From positions 744,001-808,000 of the forward strand of contig NZ_CP076326.1 of the NCBI RefSeq assembly GCF_018771565.1: a stretch of 64,000 bases of DNA. The letters run 5' to 3'. Below, piece by piece: positions 21,518-60,604 of the stretch. A program made the position numbers and the translations under genes. The stretch comes from Thermoflexus hugenholtzii. GTDB taxonomy: Bacteria > Chloroflexota > Anaerolineae > Thermoflexales > Thermoflexaceae. The notes below the pieces were generated by a model. It was not told the DNA's origin. It did no database searches and was given only the letters and a program-made list of their open reading frames with translations. The number at the start of each line of letters is the position of its first letter. The stretch's first letter is position 1.

Positions 21518-21557
21518 GCCGAAATGAATTTCGGCTTACGTGGGGGCTTTCGCCCCG
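21518..21557. repeat. GCCGAAATGAATTTCGGC-type palindromic element, copy 1
   Basis: An 18-bp palindrome (21518-21535) is followed by TTACGT and a second hairpin, GGGGCTTTCGCCCC. The same sequence order occurs at 60513-60560. It lies in the 462 bp between tRNA-Val and the GMC oxidoreductase gene. Apart from this, the tRNA promoter and the 80-bp element, I see nothing defined in that gap. Confidence 0.7.
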
Positions 21558-33133: not shown

Positions 33134-34228
33134 ATGCGCACCTATGCCATCCCGCTGGTCCCGGGGCCGACGACGGTCCCGGCGGAGATCCGGGCGGCCT
33201 ATCAGGAGGACTACGGCTCGGCGGACCTGGAGCCGGAATATTACGAGCTCTATGCGGAGACCCAGGAGCAGTTGCGGGCCATCCTGGGGACCCGCAACGC
33301 GGTGGTGATCATGACCGGGGAGGCCATGGTGGTCCTCTGGGGGGCGCTCAAGAGCGTCCTGCGCCCGGGGGATCGGGTGGTGGCGGTGGCCACCGGGGTC
33401 TTCGGCTACGGCATCGCTGACATGGCCCGCCGCATCGGCGCCGAGGTGGAGGTGGTCGGGTTCGCCCATGACGAGGCCGCCGACCCGGCGCGGGTGGAGG
33501 AGGCCATCCGGCGGGTCCGCCCCAAGATGGTCACCATGGTCCACTGCGAGACGCCCTCCGGGATCCTCAACCCGGTGGCCGAGGTGGGGGCGCTGGTGGA
33601 TCGCTACGACGTGCCGCTCTTCTACGTCGACGCCGTCTCCAGCGCCGCGGGGGTCCCCCTGCGGGTGGACGAGTGGCGCATCGATCTGTGTCTGGTGGGC
33701 ACCCAGAAGTGCCTCTCGGCGCTGCCGGACCTGGGGATCGTGACGGTGAGCGAGCGGGCCTGGGAGATCGTGCGGGAGGTGGACTATGCGGGCTACGATG
33801 CCCTGGGCCCCTTCCGCACCGCCCTGGAGGACCGCTGGTTCCCTTACACGCCGTCCTGGCATGCGCTGGCAGCCCTGAACGTGGCGTGTCGGCGGGTGCT
33901 GGGGGAGGGGCTGGAGAACGTCTTCCGTCGCCACGAAGAGGTGGCGGCCTACTGCCGGGAGCGGTTGAAGGCCATGGGGCTTCGCCTCTTCCCCCGACGG
34001 GAGGAATGGTCTTCGCCCACCGTCACCGCGGTCTACGTCCCGGAGGATCTGCCCTGGCCGGAGCTGGATCGCCGCCTGCGGGCGCGGGGGATGGGGGTGG
34101 GCGGGAGCCTGGGGCCGCTGGCCGGGAAGGTGTTCCGCATCGGCCACATGGGCGCCCAGGCGGATCCGGAGCTCGTGCGGCGGGGGATGGACGTGCTGGA
34201 GGAGGCCCTCGCCGAAGCCCGATCGTAG
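33134..34228 (+). CDS. Class V aminotransferase (alanine/serine-glyoxylate aminotransferase family)
   Basis: A 364-residue PLP enzyme. N-terminal LVPGPTTVP is the usual start of the AGXT/SGAT family. DAVSSAAGVPL carries the PLP-contact Asp, and the Schiff-base lysine lies in GTQKCLSALP. RIGHMG near the C-terminus binds the substrate carboxylate. It transfers an amino group from alanine or serine to glyoxylate, or acts on related acids such as ureidoglycine. ATG 33134 is preceded by GAGGGAGG. With the GlcF-like subunit elsewhere in the window, glyoxylate metabolism is plausible, but the genes are 22 kb apart. The hairpin repeat array starts 18 bp after its stop. Confidence 0.85.
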   Translation: MRTYAIPLVPGPTTVPAEIRAAYQEDYGSADLEPEYYELYAETQEQLRAILGTRNAVVIMTGEAMVVLWGALKSVLRPGDRVVAVATGVFGYGIADMARRIGAEVEVVGFAHDEAADPARVEEAIRRVRPKMVTMVHCETPSGILNPVAEVGALVDRYDVPLFYVDAVSSAAGVPLRVDEWRIDLCLVGTQKCLSALPDLGIVTVSERAWEIVREVDYAGYDALGPFRTALEDRWFPYTPSWHALAALNVACRRVLGEGLENVFRRHEEVAAYCRERLKAMGLRLFPRREEWSSPTVTAVYVPEDLPWPELDRRLRARGMGVGGSLGPLAGKVFRIGHMGAQADPELVRRGMDVLEEALAEARS

Positions 34229-34245
34229 GTCGAGATGGATTTCGC

Positions 34246-34883
34246 GCCGAATGAATTCGGCCTCCAGGGGCCTTCGGCCAATGGTCGGCCTGGGGCGCCG
34301 AATGAATTCGGCCTCAAGGGGCCTTCGGCCAATGGTCGGCCTGCGCCGACCGGGAAGGGGTTTTGCGTCGGCGGAGGCCGACGCTTGGCGCGGAGCGCCT
34401 TGGGAGGCCGATTTCAATCGGCGTGGGCGCCTTTGGCCGGTGGTCGGCCTGCGCGCCGAATGAATTCGGCCTCCAGAGGCCTTCGGCCGACGGTCGGCCT
34501 GCGCCGACCGGGAAGGGGTTTTGCGTTGGCGGAGGCCGACGCCTGGCGCGGAGCGTCTTGAGAGGCCGATTTCAATCGGCGTGGGTGCCTTTGGCCGGTG
34601 GTCGGCCTGCGCGCCGAATGAATTCGGCCTCCAGAGGCCTTCGGCCAATGGTCGGCCTGCGCCGACCGGAAAAAGCCTCTTTGCGTCGGCGGAGGCCGAC
34701 GCCTGGCGTGAAGCGCCTGGAGAGGCCGATTTCAATCGGCGTGAGAGCCTGCGCCGACCGAGAAGGGGTTTTGCGTCGGCGGAGGCCGACGCCTGGCGCG
34801 TAAGCGCCCCAGAAGGCCGATTTCAATCGGCGCGAAGGCCGACGCTTGGCGCGTAGCGCCCTTGGAGGTCGAATTCATTCGAC
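34246..34883. repeat. Tandem hairpin array, 158-bp period, GCCGAATGAATTCGGC-type palindromes
   Basis: The 646 bp between the aminotransferase and the NTPase consist almost wholly of imperfect tandem repeats. Palindromes GCCGAATGAATTCGGC begin at 34246, 34297, 34455 and 34613; the last two intervals are both 158 bp. Each long unit also holds hairpins such as GGCCTTCGGCC, GCGTCGGCGGAGGCCGACGC and GGCCGATTTCAATCGGC. The 3' part (34737-34883) is degenerate and ends inside the NTPase gene. Open frames here on both strands are by-products of the repeats, not genes. Confidence 0.85.
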
Positions 34884-35417
34884 GACATATAGGCCGTGGG
34901 CCCGCAGCCACGCCAGCGCCCCTTCCCGCAGGCGCTCCCGGTTGGCCGGCGTCAGCTCCCAGCATTCGACGCCCGGACGGCGTTTGAAGGCGTCGGCCCA
35001 GGGGTGGGGGCTGGCGGTGATGGTGGCGATCAGGGGGCGGGGGCCGGCGGCCGCCTCCTCCAGGGCCTGGCGGAAGGCGGCGCTGAGCAGCTCCATCTTC
35101 CCGATCTCATCCACCAGGGCCACGGCCTTCTCCGCCACGGCGGCGCGCAGGGCCGGCACCCCCAGGCGATCCAGGGCCTCCAGGTCCACCCCGTAGCGTC
35201 CCACCCGATGCGGGGCGCGCCCCGCCCAGTCCACGTGGGCGAAAACCGCGGCGCGGCCGTCGAGGGTGACCAACCGGAACCCGAGGCGGCCCTGAGGGCC
35301 GCGGATCTCCTCCGTGTAGAACCCTCCGGCCTGTTCCCCTAAGGCGCGGGCAAGGGCTCGGATCAGGGTGGTCTTGCCCGCGCCGGGCCGTCCGGTGATC
35401 AGCAGGATGGCGCCCAT
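34875..35417 (-). CDS. THEP1-type nucleoside-triphosphatase
   Basis: A 180-residue P-loop NTPase. Walker A GRPGAGKTT (Lys15), the GGFYTEEI segment and Walker B VALVDEIGKMELLS (about residue 103) are the THEP1 (NTPase_1) signature; ITASPHPWAD follows. THEP1 enzymes hydrolyse NTPs in thermophiles; the physiological role is unclear. Length is standard (170-190). ATG 35417 is preceded by GAGAGGAGCC. The last codons and stop lie in the repeat palindrome 34868-34883, so its C-terminus (VVE) is repeat-derived. Confidence 0.88.
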   Translation of the reverse strand: MGAILLITGRPGAGKTTLIRALARALGEQAGGFYTEEIRGPQGRLGFRLVTLDGRAAVFAHVDWAGRAPHRVGRYGVDLEALDRLGVPALRAAVAEKAVALVDEIGKMELLSAAFRQALEEAAAGPRPLIATITASPHPWADAFKRRPGVECWELTPANRERLREGALAWLRAHGLYVVE

Positions 35418-35810: not shown

Positions 35811-36949
35811 ATCGAAATCCCCTGAGAACGGGTCTCGGCTCTGCAAGGGTGATCGAAATCACCCTCACTTCCGGAGTGATTGCTCCGGGTCGCAATCCCC
35901 TGAGAACGGGTCTCGGCTCTGCAAGCTCGGACCATGCGGATCAGCATCAAGCAATATGATGAGTTTTGTCGCAATCCCCTGAGAACGGGTCTCGGCTCTG
36001 CAAGCGTCGTCCATGGGCGCGCGTATAAGTTCGCTTTGGAATACCGTCGCAATCCCCTGAGAACGGGTCTCGGCTCTGCAAGCCCGGGCCTGGCGCTGCG
36101 CTTCCTGCGCCAGACCTTCGGGTCGCAATCCCCTGAGAACGGGTCTCGGCTCTGCAAGGCCCGGTTGCCCTGGCGCGGGCCGCGATTCCCGTCAAGAATG
36201 TCGCAATCCCCTGAGAACGGGTCTCGGCTCTGCAAGGGGCGGATCGAAGCGGTTGAAGGCACCCGCCGTGAACCGCGTGTCGCAATCCCCTGAGAACGGG
36301 TCTCGGCTCTGCAAGGTTGCATGCAGTATGCGGGGGAGGAGCAAATGGCGCTGGCAACGTCGCAATCCCCTGAGAACGGGTCTCGGCTCTGCAAGGGAAT
36401 TCGACGCGATCATCCATCACCTCCCGAATAAGCGCCGTCGCAATCCCCTGAGAACGGGTCTCGGCTCTGCAAGCCTGCTCGCGCCGCTCGCGCTCGCGCT
36501 CGACCTCGCGCAGTCGCAATCCCCTGAGAACGGGTCTCGGCTCTGCAAGGGAATTCGACGCGATCATCCATCACCTCCCGAATAAGCGCCGTCGCAATCC
36601 CCTGAGAACGGGTCTCGGCTCTGCAAGCCAACCCAAGGGGGTTCCCATGGTGTCCCCGGCTGAGTTCGCACGTCGCAATCCCCTGAGAACGGGTCTCGGC
36701 TCTGCAAGGTGTATGGTTTCGGCTGGCTGAAGGAGGAGTGGTATGACCGCGTCGCAATCCCCTGAGAACGGGTCTCGGCTCTGCAAGTCGAGGCCGTGTG
36801 CCGCGGCCACCGGCTCCAGCGTTCGTCCAGATCGTCGCAATCCCCTGAGAACGGGTCTCGGCTCTGCAAGCTGGATGGCCTGCTCGGGCTATCATCCAAC
36901 GGAGAGCATCGTGTCGCAATCCCCTGAGAACGGGTCTCGGCTCTGCAAG
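35811..36949 (-). CRISPR. CRISPR array, 15 repeats of 37 nt, 14 spacers, type III-A associated
   Basis: Fourteen identical 37-nt repeats begin at 35889, 35968, 36046, 36122, 36200, 36279, 36359, 36437, 36513, 36591, 36672, 36751, 36834 and 36913; a degenerate one lies at 35811-35847 (two mismatches). Spacers are 39-46 nt. On the minus strand the repeat starts CTTGCAGAGCC, has a GAGA/TCTC stem and ends GGGGATTGCGAC, so the last eight bases ATTGCGAC fit the usual 5' handle of Cas6-cut crRNAs. The degenerate repeat at the left and the promoter-bearing leader at the right both indicate transcription leftward. Spacers at 36396-36436 and 36550-36590 are identical. Confidence 0.97.
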
Positions 36950-37282: not shown

Positions 37283-37561
37283 TTAGATCACCCAAACGTC
37301 CGGGTCCGCCCGGAGGGGGGATGGGCCGATGCGCCGGATGCGTCGCCGGCACGCGGGGCACAGCGGGTAAATCCGGATGGCGTCTTCGCGGGCCTCCACC
37401 ACCCGGCGGATCCGCTCCTCCAGCCGGTCCAACTGATGCTCCTCCAGCTCCCCCTCAAACACGCTCTTCTGCACCCGGTCCAGCATCCCCCACAGGACCC
37501 GCGATAGGCGCAGCCGCCGCCGATCATCCGGAATGTCATAAGCGACCACGCAATACGGCAT
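37283..37561 (-). CDS. cas2: CRISPR-associated endonuclease Cas2
   Basis: A 92-residue Cas2. The ferredoxin-like fold begins CVVAYDIPDD with the conserved Asp9 at the end of strand one, and SVFEGEL follows as in most Cas2 proteins. With Cas1 it forms the spacer-integration complex. ATG 37561 has GGAGGG seven bases upstream; the longer frame would run through the palindrome at 37597-37624. The C-terminus has a CX2C pair (CPAC), unusual for Cas2 but seen in some thermophile versions. It is the last gene of the cas unit, next to the leader. Confidence 0.93.
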   Translation of the reverse strand: MPYCVVAYDIPDDRRRLRLSRVLWGMLDRVQKSVFEGELEEHQLDRLEERIRRVVEAREDAIRIYPLCPACRRRIRRIGPSPLRADPDVWVI

Positions 37562-37596
37562 CTTCACCCTCCATGGCGTTTCGGATTTTTCGGCAT

Positions 37597-37624
37597 GTCG
37601 GGCAACTGCGAGCAGTTGCCCCAC
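37597..37624. repeat. Copy of the 28-bp hairpin core, reverse orientation
   Basis: In the reverse orientation it reads GTGGGGCAACTG, CTCG, CAGTTGCCCGAC: the same stem-loop as the core of the 80-bp element but with G-C where the others have A-T at the sixth pair. It lies between cas1 and cas2. Confidence 0.7.
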
Positions 37625-37682
37625 ATCCCCGCTTGGGCCGGCGATGCGACAGGAGGCGGGCCGCCCGCCCGGACCGGACGCC

Positions 37683-38672
37683 TCACGCCTCCATGCGGAA
37701 GGGCGTATACAGCGACCCGCTCCAGACCGCCCGCGCCATCCGCCGGACCTGCTCGTCAAGCCGCTCCCGCCAGGACGACGCCCCCTCGCCAGGCGAGCGA
37801 CGCATAAACGCCTCATAGGCTGTCAGATATCGCCGCAGGGCTTCCGGCCGTAGCAGCACCGCTCCATCTTCCTCCCGCTCCTCAAAGTCTTCAGCGCGGA
37901 AGGCCCGTCGGTTCACCAGGCTCAGCACCAGCCGATCCACCACCGCATGCCGGAACTCCTCCACCAGATCCAGGGCCAGGGCCGGGCGACCATGTCGCAC
38001 TTCGTGATAGAACCCGATGTAAGGATCCAGCCCGCAGGCCGCGATCTTGCCGATCATCTCCCCGGTCAGCAGCGCATATCCCAGAGACAGCATGGCGTTC
38101 ACCGGATCCCGAGGCGGGCGCCGATGACGGCCTTCGAAACGGAGCTCCCCCCGGACCATCTCCCGGAAGGCCTCGAAGTAGGCCGCGGTGCCGCTCCCCT
38201 CGATCCCCCGCAGCGTCTCCAGGTCCGGCGCCTCCTGGACCTGGGCGATCCGCCGCTCCATGGCCTGCAGGGGCTTCTCCCATCCCGGACCGGGGTAGGC
38301 GCGCGCGTAGCGCAACAGCAGGCGGCGCGCGTTCTCCAGCTTGGCCGCCACGATCCGCGCGGCGATCTCCCGCCGAAACCCCTCGTTCGTATAGCGCTCA
38401 AACTGCCGCAGCCGGAGCAGGGCGTTCCGCGAGAGGATCGGCGTCAGGCGCCCTTTCAGACGCCCCTCCACGGTGAAGAAGCACACTTCGATCCCCTGGG
38501 CCAACAACAGCCCGATGGCCGGGGTCGTCAACTGCACGCCCCCGAAGACCCATACGCCTTCCACTTTGAAAGCCGGGACGCTGAGGAGAACCTCCTCCCC
38601 CTTGCGCACCACCAGGCGGTCCCCCTCGCGTCCCAGGACCGCACCCTGTTCGGTGAGATAAAGCATCGGCAT
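37683..38672 (-). CDS. cas1: CRISPR-associated endonuclease Cas1
   Basis: A 329-residue Cas1 integrase. The N-terminal beta domain starts MPMLYLTEQGAVLG; the helical C-terminal domain holds the metal site: Glu in RGIEGSGTAAYF (about 158), His in GFYHEVRHGRPALALDL (about 224) and Glu/Asp in LVEEFRH (about 237). It inserts new spacers with Cas2. Length is standard. No strong ribosome site precedes ATG 38672; ATG 38666 is an alternative. It lies 37 bp after csm6 and 121 bp before cas2, the gap holding a palindromic hairpin. Confidence 0.95.
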   Translation of the reverse strand: MPMLYLTEQGAVLGREGDRLVVRKGEEVLLSVPAFKVEGVWVFGGVQLTTPAIGLLLAQGIEVCFFTVEGRLKGRLTPILSRNALLRLRQFERYTNEGFRREIAARIVAAKLENARRLLLRYARAYPGPGWEKPLQAMERRIAQVQEAPDLETLRGIEGSGTAAYFEAFREMVRGELRFEGRHRRPPRDPVNAMLSLGYALLTGEMIGKIAACGLDPYIGFYHEVRHGRPALALDLVEEFRHAVVDRLVLSLVNRRAFRAEDFEEREEDGAVLLRPEALRRYLTAYEAFMRRSPGEGASSWRERLDEQVRRMARAVWSGSLYTPFRMEA

Positions 38673-38709
38673 GGCCGGGCCGAACGGGATCGGATATGGG
38701 CGTGCCCCC

Positions 38710-40188
38710 CTACTCCCGAGACAGCCGCCTCTGGATGAAGTCCGCGATGGCGGAATACGGATCGTCCCGCGCCTCGATCCGGAGCATCTCCAGGATGCGC
38801 GCCAGCCCTTCTACTGGATCGTCGACCTTCCCCTCCCGCCACGGCGCGTAGGCGGCCCGCAGGTCCTCCTCCGAGACGCCCACGAAGTCGTGGCCGATGA
38901 TGGTGCGATGCCGCCGCTCCACCAGGGGATCCAGCTGGTTCACCTGCTTGAGCAGCGCCTGGTAGCGCCCTCGCTCTCCCTCGGGGACCAGCGGACGGCC
39001 CTCGGCGTCCGTCCCGCCCTTCTCGATGGCGAAGGCGAGCAGGGCTTTGTAAGTCGGCCGGGAGATCTGCCGCCAGTCCAGGGGCTGCCCCTCCACCTCC
39101 TGCTGCTCCAGGAAACGCAACAGCGCCGGGTTCCCCCGGATCCCCTCCTCCCAGCGCCGGCGGGTCTCCTCCCGGACCTCCCGGGCGAGGTCGGTGGGGA
39201 GGCCGAGAAGCGTCTCCACCAGATAACGGAGGAGGGCCTCCTGGAACCGGTAGACGCGGCCCAGGAAGTCGGCGTAGCGGCCGCTCCGATAGGCCGCCCG
39301 GGCGTTCCAGAAGAGCTCCCGCAACAGGGCTTCCCAGCGACGCGGAGGATCCCCCGGCCCGAGCAGGGGGTCCAGATCGTGGAGCAGCCGTTGCTGGATG
39401 AAGGCCCGGGTCGCCGCATCCCCTTCCCTCATCGCCTGATCCAGGGCCTCCCGGGCCCCCTCGAAGTCGAACTCCATCCGCCGGGCGGCGTAGGCGGCCA
39501 GGGCGATCAGGCCCGGCGGGGCCCCGAGGTCCCGCAGGAGCGCCTCGGCGCGGGCGAAATCCCCCTCCTGCAGCCGATCCCGGACGGCCGCCTCCTGGAA
39601 GGCCTGAAGGATCTGGTGGCCGACCCGCAGCTCGTGGGGCTCCCCGCCGTAAGGGGGATAGAGGGCCCGCAGCCGCTCGCCGTAGCGGCGGATCCCCTGC
39701 AGCAGCAGCCCCATGTTGCAGGCCGGCGTGCCGCCCGCCAGGATGACGTAGGCGTGTTGAAACCCTTCCGGGAGCGGGGGCAGGAGGCGCCCGAAGGCCT
39801 CGAAGGCCTCGTCATACAGAGCGGGGTTGATGCCCTCGATCCGCCGCGCCTCCACCCGGAAGTCCTCCCGGAACCCGGCCTCCCGCAGGCGCCCCGGCAG
39901 ATGGCGGGCGATGATCTCGGCGAAATGCAGGGTGTCGGAGCCGCGGTGCTTGGGATCCGGCTGATCGGTGCCGAAGAGGATCACCTGCCAGGGACGCTCC
40001 GCGCGATGGCGGGAGAGGAGATAGCGCAGGCACGGCTCCAGGATGGGGAAGCGCAGCCGCGCCGCCTGCCCGGGATCTCGCTCCAGCTCCCGAAGGAGGC
40101 GCTCGCCTCCCTCGCGGGCCGGCCGGATCTCCTGATCCTCCCACATCACGTCCCGCGCGCCGATGTTGCACAGGATCAGCAACGCCAT
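38710..40188 (-). CDS. csm6: Csm6-type CARF-HEPN ribonuclease
   Basis: A 492-residue protein with a Csm6/Csx1 layout. The N-terminal CARF domain begins LLILCNIGARDV and has ILAGGTPACNMGLLLQG near 150, matching the ligand-binding loop motif. The C-terminal HEPN domain has RTIIGH (about 428-433), the R-X4-H catalytic motif. In type III systems such proteins bind cyclic oligoadenylate made by Cas10 and then cut RNA non-specifically. ATG 40188 is preceded by GGAGGAGG. It follows csm5 after a GC hairpin with a T-run (40211-40235) that could lower its expression. Confidence 0.88.
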   Translation of the reverse strand: MALLILCNIGARDVMWEDQEIRPAREGGERLLRELERDPGQAARLRFPILEPCLRYLLSRHRAERPWQVILFGTDQPDPKHRGSDTLHFAEIIARHLPGRLREAGFREDFRVEARRIEGINPALYDEAFEAFGRLLPPLPEGFQHAYVILAGGTPACNMGLLLQGIRRYGERLRALYPPYGGEPHELRVGHQILQAFQEAAVRDRLQEGDFARAEALLRDLGAPPGLIALAAYAARRMEFDFEGAREALDQAMREGDAATRAFIQQRLLHDLDPLLGPGDPPRRWEALLRELFWNARAAYRSGRYADFLGRVYRFQEALLRYLVETLLGLPTDLAREVREETRRRWEEGIRGNPALLRFLEQQEVEGQPLDWRQISRPTYKALLAFAIEKGGTDAEGRPLVPEGERGRYQALLKQVNQLDPLVERRHRTIIGHDFVGVSEEDLRAAYAPWREGKVDDPVEGLARILEMLRIEARDDPYSAIADFIQRRLSRE

Positions 40189-40210
40189 GGGCCTCCTCCT
40201 TCCACGGACG

Positions 40211-40235
40211 CGAAAAGGCCGGGCGCGCCCGGCCT
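40211..40235 (-). terminator. Hairpin/terminator-like element between csm5 and csm6
   Basis: A perfect 20-bp palindrome (40216-40235, AGGCCGGGCGCGCCCGGCCT) starts at the csm5 stop codon. On the minus strand it is followed by a short T-run (TTTT) and then CG. The stem is strong and the T-run short, so partial termination or mRNA protection is more likely than full stop. Confidence 0.55.
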
Positions 40236-41365
40236 CATTCCGGGATCAGGCGGATCCATCCCAGGGGGAGGGTGGGCTTTCCGTCCTCGAAGAGCACCCG
40301 CCGGGTTTTGGGGAAGGGATCCCCCTTGCCCAGGTTGAAGAGGCGCCGCAGCCGGCCCACGGCCTCCGCCCCCATGGCCTCGGCCGCCGCCTTGCTCCGC
40401 CAGCCGCCTCCCCAGCCCAGGTTCAGGTAGATCGCCTGGGGCTCCGCCTCCATCTGCGTCAGCAGGCGGCGATAGAAGGCGGCCCACGCCGCCAGGCCCA
40501 GGCGCTCCCCGAAGCGCAGCTCCCCCTCGGCGACGTGTCGGGCGAAGGCGTTGCAGGCGCGCGCCCATTCCCGAACCCGCGCCCGCCGCTCCTCCGGCCC
40601 CAGGACGTCCCGCCCGAGCAGGAAGGCGTCGGCCTCCACCTCCACCCGCAGGGCGGCCCGGGGATGGGGCCGGAGGATCTCCGCCACGATCTCGAAGGCC
40701 TGCCCGGGGTCCGCGACGTGTTTCCCCGGCGCCTGGAGCCAGCTCAGGGCCCCGCTGGGCTCGTGGACCGCCACCCGGATCCGCCCGACGTCCAGGGCGT
40801 CGGAGGGGGCGGGCCCGCTGTCGAAGACCCGCAGGGCCCGCAGCGCGTCCTCGTGAGGCTCTTTCCCCATCAGCGCCTGCATCAGGGGGTCGTCGGCGGA
40901 CTCTCTGGCCCGGCTCCCGGATTTCCGGGCCTCCTCGGCCCTTCGCGCCACCGCATCCAGCCAGGCCTGGCGCTGGGCCGGGGAGGCCGCCCGGAGGGCG
41001 GCGAAGGCCAGGGCGGTGCGGATCGCCCCCTTGAGGGAGGAGCCCGGCAGATACGGCCGCCCGAGGGCATCGGCGATGTGCTCGCGGATCTCCCGGGGGG
41101 GCGGGCCGGACCAGGGGCGGACGTAGCGGGCGAGGGGGCGGCGGTCGGCCTCGCTCCAGAACCGCAGGGCCGCCGCTCCCTCCTGGATGTAGCGATCCAG
41201 GGCCCGGGGGTCGCGGGCCAGGGCCGCCGTCAGGTGCTCGGGATCGAACCGCCACAGGCGTCCGTCCAGGACGGCGAAGTCCGCCGGGCCCAGCCGCTGG
41301 CCGCTGCCGATGTGCACCGGCGAGAGGAGCTCCACGCGATAGATCCGACGCTCCAGGATCCCCAT
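40235..41365 (-). CDS. csm5: Type III-A CRISPR RAMP protein Csm5
   Basis: A 376-residue RAMP protein. N-terminal YRVELLSPVHIGSGQRLGP is the first RRM strand with the Gly-loop, and YLPGSSLKGAIRTAL (about 105) is the insertion loop typical of Csm5. A C-terminal LGWGGGWRSK completes the second RRM. Csm5 caps the 3' end of the crRNA in the Csm complex. The csm4 stop lies three bases before its start, so the two are coupled. ATG 41365 was taken because the RRM strand begins at once. Confidence 0.9.
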   Translation of the reverse strand: MGILERRIYRVELLSPVHIGSGQRLGPADFAVLDGRLWRFDPEHLTAALARDPRALDRYIQEGAAALRFWSEADRRPLARYVRPWSGPPPREIREHIADALGRPYLPGSSLKGAIRTALAFAALRAASPAQRQAWLDAVARRAEEARKSGSRARESADDPLMQALMGKEPHEDALRALRVFDSGPAPSDALDVGRIRVAVHEPSGALSWLQAPGKHVADPGQAFEIVAEILRPHPRAALRVEVEADAFLLGRDVLGPEERRARVREWARACNAFARHVAEGELRFGERLGLAAWAAFYRRLLTQMEAEPQAIYLNLGWGGGWRSKAAAEAMGAEAVGRLRRLFNLGKGDPFPKTRRVLFEDGKPTLPLGWIRLIPE

Positions 41366-60481: not shown

Positions 60482-60604
60482 GGGCTTTCGCCCCGAACCT
60501 TCGATCCTGGAGGCCGAAATGAATTTCGGCTTACGTAGGAGGGGCTTTCGCCCCGAACTTTCCGCCTGCGATGACCCAAGGTTCGCGGCGAAAGCCGCTC
60601 CTAC
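60482..60604. repeat. GCCGAAATGAATTTCGGC-type palindromic element, copy 2
   Basis: The 18-bp palindrome (60513-60530) is preceded and followed by copies of GGGCTTTCGCCCCGAAC. A longer inverted repeat has arms GTAGGAGGGGCTTTCGCC (60535-60552) and GGCGAAAGCCGCTCCTAC (60587-60604), one mismatch in 18. It fills most of the 203 bp between gyrA and the dehydrogenase gene. Confidence 0.75.

Follow-up and report, generated by a model that had tools for sequence, protein, structure and literature searches.

The window analysed here is a 64-kb stretch (G000:C1:744001-808000) of the 3.32-Mb, single-contig genome of Thermoflexus. Within it, palindromes repeated at a period of 158 bp form an array free of genes at positions 34244-34883, which takes up the 646-bp gap separating an aminotransferase gene from an NTPase gene (Table 1). 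The two genes are convergent, with both 3' ends directed toward the array, and the last hairpin of the array shares 9 bp with the NTPase gene at its 3' end. This hairpin is the source of the last codons and the stop codon of that gene, both here and in the congener G004; the NTPase protein of other congeners ends differently. Tetraloop hairpins of two types number 15 within 34200-34900, compared with 4 in the remaining ~63 kb of the window.

TRF delineated a stretch at 34270-34750 with a period of 158 bp, 3.0 copies, 91% matches and a score of 781, followed by a second stretch with a 90-bp period (34655-34832). Ungapped repeats form a 62-bp family, spaced by 158 and 158 bp, and a 71-bp family, spaced by 158, 160, 90 and 53 bp. 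The sequence-only reading of this locus had described an array of distinct nested palindromes in fixed order, repeated twice at exactly 158 bp and then decaying, which fills an intergenic gap, has no protein features and differs from a CRISPR array; this description agrees with the spacings, with the recurring b-a-A-B order of the units and with the gene-free gap. A CRISPR array was ruled out, since the entire 158-bp period repeats without unique spacers. The number of units is given as assembled, from the assembly sequence alone. No Rfam match was found within the array and no promoter-like or terminator-like site at 34000-35100, and nothing in these results supports the earlier suggestion of a small-RNA source. 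At a distance of ~1 kb, the stretches 35889-36709 and 37283-41365 hold a CRISPR-like array and, after it, Cas2, Cas1, a protein with weak similarity to Csm6 and a RAMP protein.

Table 1. Parts of the palindrome array and flanking genes, in window positions.
Feature	Position	Strand	Details
Class-V aminotransferase gene (PF00266), flanking	33134..34228	+	
Leading half unit	34244..34294	+	hairpin b 34246-34261 (GCCGAA-TGAA-TTCGGC), GGCC-TTC-GGCC hairpin, truncated hairpin a; 51-bp spacing
Unit 1, b-a-A-B	34297..34422	+	folds into a single long hairpin
Unit 1, hairpin b	34297-34312		loop TGAA
Unit 1, hairpin a	34334-34351		loop CTGC
Unit 1, hairpin A	34365-34384		loop GGAG
Unit 1, small third hairpin between A and B	34387-34399		visible in the sequence
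Unit 1, hairpin B	34407-34422		loop TTCA
Unit 2, b-a-A-B	34455..34580	+	158 bp after unit 1; mismatch in A hairpin
Unit 3, b-a-A-B	34613..34740	+	158 bp after unit 2
Decayed half unit	34753..34831	+	A 34773-34792, B 34816-34831
Terminal half unit	34836..34883	+	hairpin B 34868-34883 = GTCGAATTCATTCGAC
NTPase_1 gene (PF03266), flanking	34875..35417	-	

Four kinds of hairpin, defined in this genome on perfect stems, recur in the element: b (loop TGAA), a (CTNC), A (GNAG) and B (TTCA). Hairpins A and a are the same, as are B and b, each read on the opposite strand, and the 126-bp b-a-A-B unit consists of two half elements inverted to each other. A half element combines an A stem of 6-8 bp carrying the GNAG loop, a short linker that forms the small third hairpin in Thermoflexus, and a B stem of 6 bp carrying the TTCA loop. 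The foot before B is RGAG/GAAG-like here and GTAG(CC) in many cyanobacterial relatives; among relatives, the second hairpin comes directly after GTGTAGCC or GTGTAGAC in 33 of 129 cases. The feet of the 258 b/B hairpins in the Thermoflexus genome were chiefly GGAG (63), GAAG (59), AGAG (42), CGAG (22) and TGAG (12), and a strict GTAG foot was not found among them. Their stems occur in versions with compensating changes, namely GCCGAT (122), GCCGAA (82) and GTCGAA (25). Folded as single-stranded DNA with DNA parameters, the 126-nt unit forms one long imperfect hairpin at -47.5 kcal/mol (z = -7.2), equalled by none of 200 shuffles. The GNAG loop of the first hairpin, mostly closed by a C-G pair, presumably belongs to the extra-stable tetraloops (GNAB) of DNA, not of RNA, and its read-out would therefore be single-stranded DNA; the term for such an extra-stable GNAB DNA tetraloop was not found among the open-licence papers listed for it.

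Distribution of the repeat family

At E <= 0.001 the array matches 134 places in the Thermoflexus genome, which were grouped by eye into ~38 loci. Exact occurrences number 86 for GCCGAATGAATTCGGC and 124 for GCCGATTTCAATCGGC, each with 0 for the reversed control, and the core pattern RYCSRCCTNCGYSGRY is found 312 times compared with 19 for its control. Clusters of at least three hairpins, collected from 33 genome stretches together with the window and with genes predicted by a simple codon-usage caller, number 35; all of them (35/35) are intergenic, none overlaps a called gene, and their hairpins mostly follow the order b-a-A-B. The genes around the clusters are co-directional in 22 cases, divergent in 9 and convergent in 4, and the corresponding counts for other gaps are 78, 18 and 7. 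Cluster gaps are thus much like other gaps in gene orientation and display no 3'-end bias, and a preference of the arrays for convergent genes, as expected of a 3'-end role, was not found in these counts. Median identity is 0.929 among units of the same locus (86 pairs) and 0.869 among those of different loci (2470 pairs), and the within-locus mean was reached by none of 1000 label permutations. The greater similarity within loci fits local expansion of the arrays, a point with some bearing on the recombination hotspots suggested in the sequence-only reading.

The array has a match in 24 of 100 genomes, its own included, and in 7 of the 9 genomes within the genus. At the gene pair considered here, G004, whose NTPase is 88% identical, carries the array with another length. 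The site is empty in four congeners: the gap is well under 150 bp in G001, G005 and G008, and G003 has a longer gap without the array. G007 has no aminotransferase gene at the NTPase site, no NTPase match was found in G002, and G006 was left out of this comparison on account of its short contig. The sequence-only reading had named strain-specific expansion without conserved palindromes as the contrary outcome; length and presence do vary among congeners, but the palindromes are conserved.

A Y1 transposase and its flanking hairpins

Y1 transposase matches in the Thermoflexus genome number four. The best of them (G000:C1:1827597-1828028; 144 aa), referred to here as tnpA, has an array of this family on either side, on the same strand. 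Its protein reaches 76 bits to Pfam Y1_Tnp (PF01797); it scores 58.3 bits in the NCBIfam IS200/IS605 model, above the cut-off of 55, and 25.4 bits in the REP_Tyr model, below the cut-off of 80. Its PDB relatives include the ISHp608 transposase. It is the single close match in its genome, the next standing at 25% identity, and no GNAG hairpin was found near any of the other three Y1 matches.

Relatives were sought with a profile built from 15 of them, and the best 80 of at least 554 relatives in named genomes were kept, many of these 80 loci being close relatives and not independent. Within this set, the Y---Q--HH motif is present in 76/80, W[QM] in 77/80 and [DE]HuH in 75/80, and Y---NP in 0/80. 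Judged by its motifs (Y---Q--HH, WQ), its length of ~144 aa and its low copy number, the tnpA protein fits TnpA-Y1 subclass 1.2. Identity as a RAYT (TnpA-REP, class 2) was rejected on the absence of Y---NP from the best 80 of at least 554 relatives and on the REP_Tyr score below cut-off, and an IS200/IS605 insertion sequence was rejected on the single close copy and on end hairpins that are mostly inverted rather than same-strand. Two loci hold altered genes. At L068 (G051:C39:8095-8505), an 83% identical tnpA without six residues, the HuH motif among them, has kept its flanking hairpins and is perhaps a decaying copy; the reading frame of tnpA at L159 (Brasilonema sp. CT11) is broken by many stops beyond the first ~25 codons.

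The hairpin counts in this paragraph all refer to the best 80 of at least 554 relatives. Within 700 bp of tnpA, 324 tetraloop hairpins were found in 106 kb at the 80 loci, 242 of them CTNC/GNAG, compared with 141 tetraloop hairpins in the far flanks (1200-3000 bp, 245 kb), where CTGC accounts for 8, CTCC for 5, CTTC for 4 and CTAC for at most 3, in sum at most 20. A CTNC/GNAG hairpin lies within 700 bp of tnpA at 70 of the 73 loci that have 300 bp of sequence on both sides of the gene, and on both sides at 57 of these 73. An outward GNAG hairpin within 300 nt is present on at least one side at 68/74 loci versus 42/2916 pseudo-genes, i.e., control positions set in the far flanks, and on both sides at 40/74 versus 0/2916. 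End hairpins point '>' in 76 and '<' in 44 cases upstream, and '<' in 89 and '>' in 33 downstream. As a shared signature, the TGAA/TTCA hairpin proved weaker than expected, with 24/324 perfect stems near tnpA at 8 loci versus 242/324 for CTNC/GNAG.

Outward-facing inverted hairpins ~45 nt from tnpA recur throughout the clade. The enrichment is also seen without stem selection: GNAG is flanked by at least 5/6 stem pairs at 233/1625 positions near tnpA (14.3%) versus 64/7986 far from it (0.8%), and TTCA by at least 4/5 pairs at 128/544 (23.5%) versus 55/2059 (2.7%), while sixteen control loops give 0.6% near and 0.56% far in the same test. The GNAG loop is common to 26 distinct 6-bp stems. A column profile reveals that A, linker and B keep the same order, and in many cyanobacterial loci GTAG stands ahead of B. 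In relatives, the B loop is often other than TTCA (TCC, TTTA, TCT), and the GNAG hairpin was therefore taken as the key. Array matches adjoin the tnpA orthologues of G003, G008 and G051.

In a tree of 97 proteins, where a few rows represent the same genome twice and rows with stops are excluded, a branch with support 99/97 splits 83 rows, 77 of them with the hairpin, from 14 sister rows, none of which has it. The hairpin label changes 6 times on the tree, compared with a mean of 18.6 after shuffling, and none of 500 shuffles was as low; the link between hairpin and transposase is thus clade-specific. Of the six rows of the positive clade without the hairpin, one lies on a contig that provides no sequence upstream of the gene, and another has just 72 bp downstream. 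Positive rows come from Chloroflexota and Cyanobacteriota, plus single or paired MAGs of other phyla. Absence from the 14 sister rows rules out the GNAG hairpin as a mark of all Y---Q--HH proteins. Beside tnpA, some loci of the sister clade (L079, L086 and others) are dominated by hairpins with the loops TGAA (18), TCAA (9) and TAAA (8), in 5, 4 and 3 of 14 loci respectively, a sign that a different kind of repeat may accompany that transposase clade.

Genomes were regarded as expanded when the core-pattern count was at least 2.5 times the control with an excess of at least 15. By this measure, 28 of the 47 tnpA-bearing genomes, which cover 47 of the 80 loci (best 80 of at least 554 relatives), are expanded (sum 2978 versus control 453), the other 19 lying below the threshold; the genomes of the Microcoleus, Oscillatoriales PH2015_09S and Lyngbya loci reach 204-256 versus a control of at most 2. 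For the 100 relatives, the ratio has a median of 3.7 in the 14 genomes with a strong tnpA match versus 1.24 in the 86 without (p = 6e-5), and the difference holds outside the genus (11 with versus 80 without, p = 3e-4). Expansion is found in 7/14 genomes with a strong match versus 11/86 without; G052, G014, G036 and G023, all outside the genus, look expanded without a tnpA match. Within the genus there is no tracking, and tnpA presence predicts copy number only in part. G001 and G004 contain 167 and 101 core-pattern matches, yet no tnpA relative was found in either, which means that arrays persist or arise without tnpA or that these draft assemblies do not include the gene.

The genome also encodes a canonical RAYT (G000:C1:304772-305101; REP_Tyr 121.5 bits), located among repeats with a GTAGGAG foot and GGGGC/GCGGC hairpins, whose core pattern occurs 208 times genome-wide versus 0 in the control. 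No GNAG hairpin was found near it. Two transposases and two repeat families in one genome provide an internal contrast. Copies of this second family lie in the window at 21518-21535 and 60513-60530, adjoined by GGGGC-TTTC-GCCCC-type repeats.

Interpretation and relation to known systems

The array is very probably a run of REPIN/BIME-like, non-autonomous elements of a REP-transposase pair. The hairpin arrays behave like tiny hitch-hiking mobile DNA, and the single-copy Y1 transposase is their likely mover. Association of a hairpin with tnpA is not activity, and the following steps are proposed by analogy. The b-a-A-B layout corresponds to the outward ends of the tnpA locus minus the gene (B'-A'-tnpA-A-B), and a miniature derivative would arise by joining both ends without it. 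The HuH/Tyr transposase would recognise the A and B hairpins in single-stranded DNA, e.g., on the lagging-strand template, then cut and rejoin them, giving copies at new intergenic sites; once a unit was in place, recombination or replication slippage would produce an array with concerted units. In vitro, class-2 TnpA-REP proteins recognise and cut the folded repeat strand-specifically, with an influence of the loop bases in one group (PMC8266576); the TnpA of this genome would, by analogy, read the A/B element as single-stranded DNA. Neither a cleavage site nor a target sequence was found. The protein docking site envisaged in the sequence-only reading would be near the mark if the protein were the cognate transposase acting on single strands.

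Alternatively, tnpA could be an ordinary IS200-like element that inserted by chance into older arrays, the arrays having spread otherwise, e.g., through the canonical RAYT of the genome or by recombination. Such an origin agrees with the scores of the protein in the IS200/IS605 and REP_Tyr models and with the two congeners that have arrays without a tnpA match; it is nevertheless unlikely, given the inverted outward hairpins at ~45 nt from the gene throughout a clade and the status of tnpA as the only close match in its genome; in addition, the repeats around the canonical RAYT belong to another family, and no GNAG hairpin lies near that gene.

Host functions, namely transcription termination, mRNA 3' protection and binding of gyrase or nucleoid proteins, have been proposed for E. 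coli REPs. Arrays kept at gene ends for such a function would be consistent with the intergenic location of 35/35 clusters, with the very stable folds and with an array that lies here between convergent genes and supplies one stop codon. As convergent gaps are not in excess (4 of 35 clusters), the array region has no terminator-like site and the gene pair is without the array in four congeners, we regard this explanation as quite improbable; the arrays may have a secondary host role, and none is claimed here. Tandem copy number is difficult to assemble, but an assembly artefact, or a simple tandem repeat of misjudged copy number, is least probable of all and hardly credible, since the family occurs with the same parts at ~38 places and in most genomes of the genus, and the independent assembly G004 has the array at the same gene pair.

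Beyond the REPIN/BIME-like nature of the array itself, we lean towards the view that a clade of subclass 1.2 drives a REP-dissemination system of its own, which extends over Chloroflexota, Cyanobacteriota and several further phyla. A two-hairpin element with a GNAG first loop would be the signature of this system, and in Thermoflexus it would operate alongside the ordinary RAYT/GTAG-REP system (>200 copies). Excerpts from Quentin et al. 2018 (PMC6006769) describe subclass 1.2 by Y---Q--HH, WQ, about 148 aa and low copy number, generally without IS200-type terminal structures, and with the table entry 'REP: no'. In the open-licence literature, none of the papers listed in a text search for the hairpin sequences contained a palindrome, their matches being to the 9-mer, and no paper linking a subclass 1.2 protein to such repeats was found; the excerpted part of RepRanger 2025 (PMC12306157) mentions no transposase. 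Repeats of this general kind and the protein subclass are already known, and their link appears to be new, none earlier having been found in the open-licence literature. Through this link, subclass 1.2, to which the Quentin classification assigns no DNA partner, gains one in a directly testable form, and REP-transposase pairs reach beyond class-2 RAYTs. The GNAG hairpin combined with the TTCA hairpin is a strong search key for repeats that are otherwise perhaps unannotated, and in genomes with both systems, such as this one, a single cell would offer a comparison of how specific two REP machines are.

The closest counterparts are the REPINs/BIMEs of E. coli and Pseudomonas with their RAYT, which share the many extragenic palindromes in inverted pairs and clusters, the low-copy Y1 HuH transposase gene flanked by matching repeats, and a presence that varies among close relatives. 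Unlike these, the half element of Thermoflexus has three hairpins (two in general), the conserved one with a GNAG tetraloop, and a strict GTAG foot was not found; its transposase has Y---Q--HH rather than Y---NP and, unlike RAYT, fails the REP_Tyr model. The IS200/IS605 elements, such as ISHp608, belong to the same Y1 HuH catalytic family (PF01797) but differ from the single close copy, inverted end hairpins and array-forming repeats observed here. Di Nocera et al. 2013 (PMC3733652), as excerpted, list GTAG-12, -15 and -16 as cyanobacterial and GTAG-23 of Thermomicrobium roseum as occurring in large blocks; these GTAG-tagged palindromes of Cyanobacteria and Chloroflexi, which might include the B hairpin, were compared with it by description only, and the excerpts describe RAYT/TIRYT genes and do not mention a GNAG-loop partner hairpin. 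With TnpA-Y1 subclass 1.2, in the catalogue entries available from PMC6006769, the protein shares the motif, the length of ~144 aa, the low copy number and the strong presence in Cyanobacteria; unlike the subclass as catalogued there, one clade is here flanked by a conserved hairpin pair.
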